Assembly (NCBI RefSeq): GCF_040703035.1
Contig: NZ_CP159996.1
Span: 1,646,001-1,710,000 of the forward strand
Direction of reading: 5' to 3'
Length of the DNA: 64,000 bases
Source of the DNA: Terribacillus aidingensis
Lineage (GTDB): Bacteria; Bacillota; Bacilli; Bacillales; Amphibacillaceae
Below, piece by piece: positions 51,004-53,406 of the stretch (position 1 is its first letter; each line of letters starts with the position of its first letter). Made by a program: the position numbers and the translations under genes. The notes under the pieces are model-generated. The model worked only from the letters and a program-made list of their open reading frames with translations. It was not told the DNA's origin and made no database searches.

Positions 51004-51037
51004 AAAACCCGGCTCCGTTATCTGGAGCTCGGGTTTT
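51004..51037 (-). terminator. sqdBX operon terminator
   Basis: Minus strand AAAACCCGAGCTCC / GGAGCCGGGTTTT hairpin (51004-51037) with T-run; it overlaps the sqdX stop codon. Confidence 0.8.
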
Positions 51038-52172
51038 GCACTGCTTGATATACGGGGGATCTTGCTTGAATAGTCTCTAAATAGTAATCAAATAATTCAC
51101 TGGAAGCATTCGTCCAGGAGTGCTTCTCAGCTTCTATTCGCACATTCTTCTTCATTATAGCTGCTAATTCCTGATTATCGAGTCTGCCAACCGCTTTACT
51201 CATGCTGGCTACATCCTCATTTTCAAAGAGGAATCCTGTCTTGCCTTCCTCGATTTGCTCCAGTGTCGGTCCGCTTTTAGCAGCAATGACTGGTATGCCG
51301 GATGCCATAGCTTCTAGTATGACCAGACCGAGTGTCTCGGTAACAGACGGGAACAGAAAAGCATCAGCAGAAGCAAACGCCTGTGATAGCTCTTCTCCAT
51401 GAAGAAAGCCTGTGAACAGCGTGTTTGTTCCTGCAAATATCTTCTCCAGTTCTTTACGGGCAGGACCGTCTCCGATAATGGCTAATGCTAAGTCATCCCG
51501 TTCATCCAGCAATGGACGAATCTTATGGATTTCCTTTTCAATTGCCAATCTGCCGACAAAGATAAGCAGTTTCTTTCTATGATCTCCTTGCAAAAGCCGC
51601 TCACGCATACGTTCTGAATAAAAATTCGGATGCCGTTTCTCTATATCGACGCCTCTGCGCAACACATGCATCCGCTCGAAGCCGTGTTCGTCAAGCTCAT
51701 GCTTGATGGCAGCAGACGTACACAGATTAATGTCAGCTGTATTATGCAACCTACGGAAATGCCACCAGAATAATGGTTTTAAAGGTTTATACAACTTGTA
51801 ATAATCAAGGTATTTCGGTACATGTGTATGATAAGACGCCAAAAGCGGCAGTCCTTTCTTATGCGCGTAATGTATTCCCGCTACTCCGACCAAGGCTGGG
51901 TTCGCCACATGTACGAGATCCGGTTGATGCTTCTCCAGCAAGGATCTAATTCGCCTAGTCGGCAAGGAGAATTTCTTGGAACGGTAAAATGGCATCGTTA
52001 CCGTTCCAACCCCTTCCACAAGAGCGCCTTCGTACTCGGTAACACCTAAATCCGGAGCGATGACGACGACTTCATGATTCTGGTTGCGCAGGAACTTGAT
52101 CGCTTCGGTGAGCCGGGTGACGACACCGTCAGTCGATGGAAGAAATGTCTCGGTGATAATGACGATTTTCAA
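51018..52172 (-). CDS. sqdX: GT4 sulfoquinovosyltransferase, SqdX-like
   Basis: 384 aa, TTG start with AGGAG 6 nt upstream. GT-B, GT4 glycosyltransferase: N-terminal ETFLPSTDGVVTRLTEAI (the acceptor side found in SqdX and mannosyl/glucosyl lipid transferases), FVGRLAIEKEI at the linker, and E-x7-E in FPSVTETLGLVILEAMASG. SqdX transfers sulfoquinovose from UDP-SQ to diacylglycerol, forming SQDG. GT4 alone would be ambiguous; the gene 9 nt upstream is sqdB, which makes the donor, so the assignment is well supported. Confidence 0.88.
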   Translation of the reverse strand: MKIVIITETFLPSTDGVVTRLTEAIKFLRNQNHEVVVIAPDLGVTEYEGALVEGVGTVTMPFYRSKKFSLPTRRIRSLLEKHQPDLVHVANPALVGVAGIHYAHKKGLPLLASYHTHVPKYLDYYKLYKPLKPLFWWHFRRLHNTADINLCTSAAIKHELDEHGFERMHVLRRGVDIEKRHPNFYSERMRERLLQGDHRKKLLIFVGRLAIEKEIHKIRPLLDERDDLALAIIGDGPARKELEKIFAGTNTLFTGFLHGEELSQAFASADAFLFPSVTETLGLVILEAMASGIPVIAAKSGPTLEQIEEGKTGFLFENEDVASMSKAVGRLDNQELAAIMKKNVRIEAEKHSWTNASSELFDYYLETIQARSPVYQAVQNPSSR

Positions 52173-52181
52173 TGTGTACTC

Positions 52182-53330
52182 CTATTTCCACGTAACTGTA
52201 GGAAGCACATTTTCTTTGATGACGCGATCTTTATGTTCAAGAGCCGTCTCCAGAATTTCACGAAGCACGTCATCTGTTAGCAGATTCGGTTCAAGACCAA
52301 GATCACGGAGCTTCGTATTCACCGCATTATAGTAATGCTCTTCTGCTTCCACTCTCGGATTTTCGATAGATTTGATCTGTGGATCAAGACCCTTCTCCCG
52401 GCTGACTTTCTGCACCTTCTCAGCAAGTTCTTTCACAGAGAAGCTTTCTGTGAATTGGTTGAATACCCGGAATTCCCCTGCATCTGCTGGATTCTCTGCT
52501 GCAATTTCCACACAGCGGATTGTATCCGTGATATTCAAGAAGCCACGTGTCTGTCCGCCGCTTCCATATACAGTGATGTCGTGGCCAGTAGCTGACTGAA
52601 TGAGGAACCTGTTCAAAGCTGTACCAAAGACACCATCATAATCGAAACGGTTTGCAAGAACCGGATCGAGTTTCGTCTCTTCTGTATGAAGACCATATAC
52701 GACACCCTGATTCAAGTCTGTTGCACGAATGCCCCAGATCCTGCAAGCAAGCATGATGTTATGGCTGTCATGAACCTTGGATAAGTGATAAAAAGAACCC
52801 GGCTGTTTCGGGAACGGCAGTTTATCCTTTCTGCCTTTATGTTCAATTTCGATATAGCCCTCTTCAATATCGATATTAGGGGTACCGTACTCTCCCATCG
52901 TACCAAGCTTAATCAGATGACAAGATGGAGCGAATTCCTTAATTGCATATAATACATTCAAGTTTCCGATCACATTATTCTGCTGCGTGTATACTGCATG
53001 CTCACGATCGATCATGCTGTACGGTGCCGAGCGCTGTTCCGCAAAGTGGACAAATGCGTCAGGCTGTGTCTGACGGAATACTTCCGCTAGAAAATCATAA
53101 TGGTTCAAGTCGCCTATGTATGTCTTGATTTCCTTGCCAGTCTTCTCTTTCCACTTTGCGACGCGCTCTTCCAAGGAATAAATTGGTGTTACGGAATTGG
53201 ATCGTAATTCTTCATCATACTTACGTCTTACTAAGTTATCGACGATTGCTACTTCATGACCTTGCTTGGACAAATAAAGGGCTGTCGGCCATCCGCAGAA
53301 ACCATCTCCACCAGCTACAACAATTTTCAT
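52182..53330 (-). CDS. sqdB: UDP-sulfoquinovose synthase SqdB/SQD1
   Basis: 382 aa. Extended SDR: NAD motif GGDGFCGW (7-14), IVDNLVRR, then Thr144 ([20 protein letters not shown]), Tyr181 and Lys185 ([13 protein letters not shown]), each one number below Thr145/Tyr182/Lys186 of Arabidopsis SQD1. [24 protein letters not shown], and [13 protein letters not shown] are also SQD1-specific. Turns UDP-glucose plus sulfite into UDP-sulfoquinovose. First gene of the sqdB-sqdX operon, with GGAGGATG-like RBS and its own promoter. Confidence 0.95.
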
Positions 53331-53377
53331 GACTCATCCTCCTGTGACATCAACATTTCTTGGTACGTTCGTTAATA

Positions 53378-53406
53378 ATTATATGCTAACGATGCTGCAA
53401 TGAAAA
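53378..53406 (-). promoter_or_regulatory. Predicted promoter of sqdBX
   Basis: Minus strand TTTTCA (53401-53406), 17-bp spacer, TATAAT (53378-53383). The -10 is perfect, the -35 weak. Confidence 0.5.

Follow-up and report, generated by a model that had tools for sequence, protein, structure and literature searches.

In the described sulfolipid systems, SqdB uses a bound NAD to form UDP-sulfoquinovose from UDP-glucose and sulfite, and SqdX moves the sulfoquinovose to diacylglycerol. Plant SQD1 is a chloroplast enzyme, and archaeal Agl3 serves glycoprotein. B. subtilis is not known to carry sqd genes. In non-photosynthetic Gram-positives, SQDG has been tied to phosphate saving by gene presence and habitat, the example being Bacillus coahuilensis (PMC4744853 and PMC2890564, both in excerpt). 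Three strains of this species have sqd1 and sqdX and, according to the same excerpts, their membranes hold sulfolipids, for which the data are not shown there (PMC4744853), with the phosphate-poor habitat given as the reason (PMC4744853, PMC2890564). As to regulation, direct repeats of 11-nt units have been described for B. subtilis, among others (excerpt of the review PMC4415409).

The window analysed here, a stretch of 64,000 nucleotides from Terribacillus aidingensis, resembles the B. coahuilensis case in that both genes occur in a heterotrophic Bacillaceae-type spore-former. Compared by description, the two differ in that the excerpts of the two papers mention no PhoP box (PMC4744853, PMC2890564). 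The first-pass annotation of this DNA had found SQDG in a heterotrophic spore-former surprising. The operon is indeed present, but the surprise is smaller than it seemed, since such a case has already been published for B. coahuilensis (PMC4744853, in excerpt) and SqdB, as judged by homology, is common in Bacillota. The sqd operon in bacilli being known, what the present locus adds are two details that we did not meet in the abstracts and excerpts examined: a PhoP-type box and an apparent gap in the sulfite supply. Among the literature matches listed, titles and the beginnings of abstracts revealed no paper that we recognised as dealing with the control of a bacillar sqdB by PhoP or with Terribacillus polar lipids.

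Identity and layout of the gene pair

The features of the locus are as follows, all on the minus strand:

51012..51028, minus strand, intrinsic-terminator-like hairpin with T-run, overlapping the 3' end of sqdX (terminator scan and folding)
51018..52172, minus strand, sqdX, GT4 glycosyltransferase, proposed sulfoquinovosyl transferase (384 aa, TTG start)
52182..53330, minus strand, sqdB, UDP-sulfoquinovose synthase of the SqdB/SQD1 type (382 aa, ATG start)
53338..53343, minus strand, ribosome-binding site AGGAGG of sqdB (sequence reading)
53378..53406, minus strand, sigma-A-like promoter TTTTCA-17-TATAAT before sqdB (consensus match only)
53416..53454, minus strand, PhoP-type box of four repeats with an 11-nt period (repeat scoring), reading TTAACA (53454-53449), TTTACA (53443-53438), TCAAAT (53432-53427) and TTAACA (53421-53416)

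The protein encoded by 52182-53330 is, by homology, a UDP-sulfoquinovose synthase of the SqdB/SQD1 type. It belongs to the extended SDR enzymes (Pfam Epimerase domain), and in a search against 177,635 distinct PDB sequences the top three matches were SQD1 sequences (575.8 to 578.4 bits), while the next non-SQD1 protein reached 39.9 bits versus 578 for SQD1 1qrr. The homology to SQD1 extends over the full length and is closer than that to any other SDR enzyme in this set. Alignment to plant SQD1 (PDB 1qrr, 1i24), one of the checks proposed in the first-pass annotation, gave 64.6% identity over 381 aa without a single gap (query 2-382 on chain 3-383). The SQD1 landmarks named there, Thr144, Tyr181 and Lys185, one off from the plant numbering, were borne out: T144, Y181 and K185 are present and align to chain residues 145, 182 and 186, which we take to be the catalytic Thr, Tyr and Lys. 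The NCBIfam model NF041015 (UDP-sulfoquinovose synthase) gave a full-length match of 499.7 bits, below the cut-off of 575. This cut-off was presumably set for a narrower, archaeal-type group, and the miss does not seem to be defining for SqdB membership.

An ORF check found both genes where they had been annotated on the minus strand, with the GT4 gene 9 nt downstream of sqdB (52173-52181). For the single promoter and single terminator claimed for the pair, a promoter-like site (a consensus match) and a terminator-like hairpin were found. The promoter-like site (53406-53378) matches 10 of 12 positions and is one of the two joint best among seven found in a scan of 50850-53700; shuffled sequences gave 5.2 such sites on average, so the promoter scan alone is weak evidence. 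The same region gave five terminator-like sites versus 2.0 in shuffles, and segment 51000-51045, which contains the hairpin at 51028-51012, folds at -23.6 kcal/mol (z -5.17), a stability equalled by none of 200 shuffles. The terminator scan found no terminator-like site between the upstream gene and sqdB, so read-through into sqdB is possible. That the operon includes no sulfite-producing or Pho genes is true of both ORFs.

The upstream gene (53451-55121, minus strand) and 55390-56901 (minus strand) encode two FAD-dependent oxidoreductases, paralogues of each other, that carry a Rieske domain at the C-terminus. Outside the genus, too, a relative of the 53451-55121 protein lies upstream of sqdB, namely in 18 loci (with at least four contigs counted twice), so this arrangement predates the genus. 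Elsewhere in the window, 46049-49235 (plus strand) holds a GH3 glycosidase followed by a NamZ exo-beta-N-acetylmuramidase, which looks like a muropeptide-recycling pair.

Taken from its sequence, sqdB-sqdX is very likely an operon of two genes for the anionic sulfolipid SQDG. If the proteins act as their families do, SqdB would convert UDP-glucose and sulfite, with bound NAD, to UDP-sulfoquinovose, and SqdX would transfer the sulfoquinovose to diacylglycerol, with SQDG as the expected product.

A PhoP-type box upstream of sqdB

A search for PhoP boxes in the region before 53406, as suggested in the first-pass annotation, turned up a four-repeat PhoP-type array at 53416-53454. The repeats were scored against the hexamer TTHAYA, which we take to be the PhoP hexamer consensus. 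The box lies before the sqdB promoter, 85 nt before the start codon, and ends 32 nt before the -10 element; at its other end, repeat 1 overlaps with the stop codon of the gene upstream. Its score, 21 of 24, is the best on either strand of the window, the next best being 19, and no other score of 20 or more occurred among 254,642 positions scored in the window and 13 other, partly overlapping stretches of this genome (pstS excluded). The score depends on the spacing, as a period of 11 gives 21 and none of the other periods between 7 and 15 exceeds 19. When the 127-nt leader was shuffled with its dinucleotides preserved, 6 of 5000 shuffles reached 21. A test on 350 nt with 100 shuffles gave a p of 0.01 to 0.02 in nine genomes of the host genus. 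Nine of the ten genomes of this genus have the same score of 21 at the same distance; the tenth (L010) has lost repeat 1 and scores 18.

The box resembles one at pstS in the same genome, which consists of TTTACA, TTTACA, TTTATT and TTAATA and scores 23 of 24, a value reached by none of 5000 shuffles. The genome also has a phoP-phoR pair between mdh and polA, presumably the place of phoPR in B. subtilis as well. PhoR was found by means of TIGR02966 (below the cut-off of that model) and gene order; the PhoR-type kinase scores above the PnpS cut-off (496 bits, cut-off 400) and, with phoP adjacent, PhoPR is taken to be present. The response regulator encoded by phoP remains below all NCBIfam cut-offs shown, the best match being YycF (273.4 of 340), and the phoP leader has a box score of only 17. 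The host resembles the B. subtilis Pho regulon in its 11-nt direct repeats (PMC4415409, in excerpt) and in its phoPR between mdh and polA. It differs from it by the PF16736 (sCache_like) domain, for which the host genome gave no match and the B. subtilis control did. In the kinase (L118:5862-7235, minus strand, 457 aa), the loop that joins the two membrane segments seems to be short. Another candidate for PhoPR, in L119, was set aside as a ResDE-like pair beside cytochrome-assembly genes.

Given an SQDG operon, we lean towards Pho control. Phosphorylated PhoP would bind the four repeats of 11-nt period ahead of the promoter, and SQDG would replace anionic phospholipid when phosphate is short, the direction of control being presumed. 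The proposal that this lipid serves phosphate limitation, made at the outset for the operon as such, gains a sequence correlate in the box. A box at sqdB that matches the one at pstS makes the phosphate link directly testable.

The main alternative is that the SQDG operon is the same but constitutive or salt-controlled, the PhoP-like repeats having arisen by chance in an AT-rich leader that the genus inherited. The comparison within the genus gives this reading some room, since conservation is not significantly higher in the repeat columns than in the spacers: for repeats 2-4, 15 of 18 columns are conserved versus 8 of 15 spacer columns (p 0.13), and for all four repeats 15 of 24 (p 0.74), or 19 of 24 when MAFFT was allowed to place a gap in L010. 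Other points that weigh against Pho control are the loss of repeat 1 in L010, the low box score of the phoP leader, the 32 nt between the box and the -10 element, and the response regulator that stays below the cut-offs. In other genera, most relatives have the operon but no box of this kind. Among the 100 loci from other genera (L011-L110), only L038 (Pseudalkalibacillus) exceeds the host score, with 22 of 24 at 248 nt upstream, and a score of 20 is reached in three (L036, L055 and L085). The idea that bacillar sqd operons generally carry a PhoP box was rejected on these counts. Control by salt would fit the company that the gene keeps: the named relatives among the best 80 loci include Halobacillus, Thalassobacillus, Salinicoccus, Planococcus, Marinococcus, Gracilibacillus, Paenibacillus and Alicyclobacillus, and many of these belong to genera of halophilic or halotolerant habit. 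Against chance repeats stand the score, period and place of the box, together with its counterpart at pstS of this genome, and we consider the alternative unlikely, albeit with an appreciable remaining chance. As an overall explanation, a two-gene SQDG operon that belongs to the Pho regulon is probable.

The glycosyltransferase partner and the spread of SqdB

The second ORF carries GT4-type glycosyltransferase domains. GT4 enzymes are hard to assign, and the product of this gene matched no NCBIfam equivalog above cut-off, the best match being N-acetylglucosaminyl phosphatidylglycerol synthase with 164.3 of 480 bits. In 99 of the 110 sqdB loci fetched, a homologue follows sqdB on the same strand at a distance of at most 231 nt; at least five contigs occur twice among the 110, so that the independent loci are fewer. 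Among the remaining 11, the homologue is farther off or upstream in five, and none was found in the DNA examined in six. The nine cyanobacterial loci (L073, L075, L076, L078, L083, L085 and L088-L090) encode an SqdB with 65-66% identity to that of the host, and seven of them have an sqdX homologue (45-47% identity). The pair is close, within 231 nt, in only four of the nine, unlike in the host; in three the homologue is farther off, and in two it is absent from the DNA examined. Within the host genus the match is 87-100% over at least residues 1-383. On account of the homologues near sqdB in 99 of 110 loci and in the cyanobacterial loci, we read the GT4 gene at 51018-52172 (minus strand), which adjoins sqdB and is a homologue of the gene that accompanies it in cyanobacteria, as the probable sqdX.

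The GT4 enzyme might instead load sulfoquinovose onto an acceptor other than diacylglycerol, such as a wall polymer or a protein glycan. The difficulty of assigning the enzyme, with a glycosyl-phosphatidylglycerol synthase as its best weak match, leaves room for such an acceptor, as does the full-length match of SqdB to NF041015, a model that we take to be of the Agl3 type. However, the same gene pair occurs in cyanobacteria, and B. coahuilensis, which bears the pair, has a membrane sulfolipid (PMC4744853, in excerpt), which makes another acceptor very improbable.

The host genome (3,576,432 bases, one contig) has a single copy of sqdB. All ten genomes of the genus carry the gene, 95-100% identical and with an open reading frame throughout. 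Of the 159 genomes of the family, 74 have a match to SqdB at E 1e-60 or better. Classed by identity, 60 of the 159 have the host type (75-100%, one being split over two pieces), 16 have a second SqdB-like kind (46-49%), and two genomes have both.

A tree of 99 rows was made from loci L001-L090, plant SQD1 and eight proteins of the second kind, with L091-L110 and Agl3 left out and the root placed at the midpoint. Host SqdB falls inside a group of 56 Bacillota rows (support 100/94), and the cyanobacteria form a separate group with plant SQD1 (support 100/92), a clade apart from that of the host enzyme. A recent transfer from cyanobacteria was rejected for this reason. Bacillota as a whole do not form one group. 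The eight proteins of the second kind (44-47% identity) lie beyond a very long branch, with host SqdB on the SqdB/SQD1 side, so the placement in the SqdB/SQD1 clade, which the earlier annotation had made one touchstone of its claim, held in this tree without Agl3. A long-branch warning was raised for the tree, and the host row is not among the long branches. The surroundings of the second kind (L120-L127) are varied, with a GT4 homologue adjoining in one of the eight genomes read out of the 16 that have it, and this kind may serve a glycan other than SQDG.

Sulfite supply

The host genome gave no match to ATP sulfurylase (PF01747), for which 5 of 14 control genomes matched, B. subtilis included, and none to the APS/PAPS-reductase family (PF01507, which we take to include CysD as well), for which 14 of 14 controls matched. 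PF01507 is absent from all ten genomes of the genus. Since neither family was matched, sulfite cannot come from the usual Sat/CysH route. Within the family, strong PF01507 matches (E 1e-33 or better) occur in 37 of 60 genomes with host-type SqdB versus 30 of 85 without an SqdB match. The other 23 of the 60 keep sqdB without a strong match, ten of them belonging to the host genus and two (G063 and G137) having weaker matches; thus a genome need not reduce sulfate by the usual route in order to keep sqdB. The idea that the operon is an unused relic in a cell unable to make sulfite, for which the two unmatched families and the absence of PF01507 throughout the genus would speak, is hardly credible given an SqdB that all ten genus genomes keep open and at 95-100% identity, a GT4 match of 87-100%, and those 23 family genomes that retain sqdB.

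An SQDG operon in use leaves the question of where the sulfite originates, which the missing sulfate-reduction families raise and which could tie phosphate stress to sulfur scavenging. Our guesses are breakdown of organosulfonates or cysteine, or uptake. A search for alkanesulfonate monooxygenase (TIGR03565) gave five matches in the host genome, none above cut-off, and the best of these proteins fits SfnG better, also below cut-off (193.9 of 382.95). We tentatively suggest, as something possible rather than probable, that the genus as a whole makes phosphorus-saving SQDG under PhoP control without sulfate reduction, so that its response to phosphate starvation would depend on scavenged reduced sulfur or organosulfonates for sulfite, and that an older sqd operon of bacilli acquired the phosphate switch in this genus.

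A single NIR_SIR match (57 bits, above the Pfam cut-off) was found in a protein of 209 aa with a weak NirB likeness (L132:1219-1848, plus strand). This protein is short for a sulfite/nitrite reductase, and a small ferredoxin-like ORF (940-1188) lies just before it.
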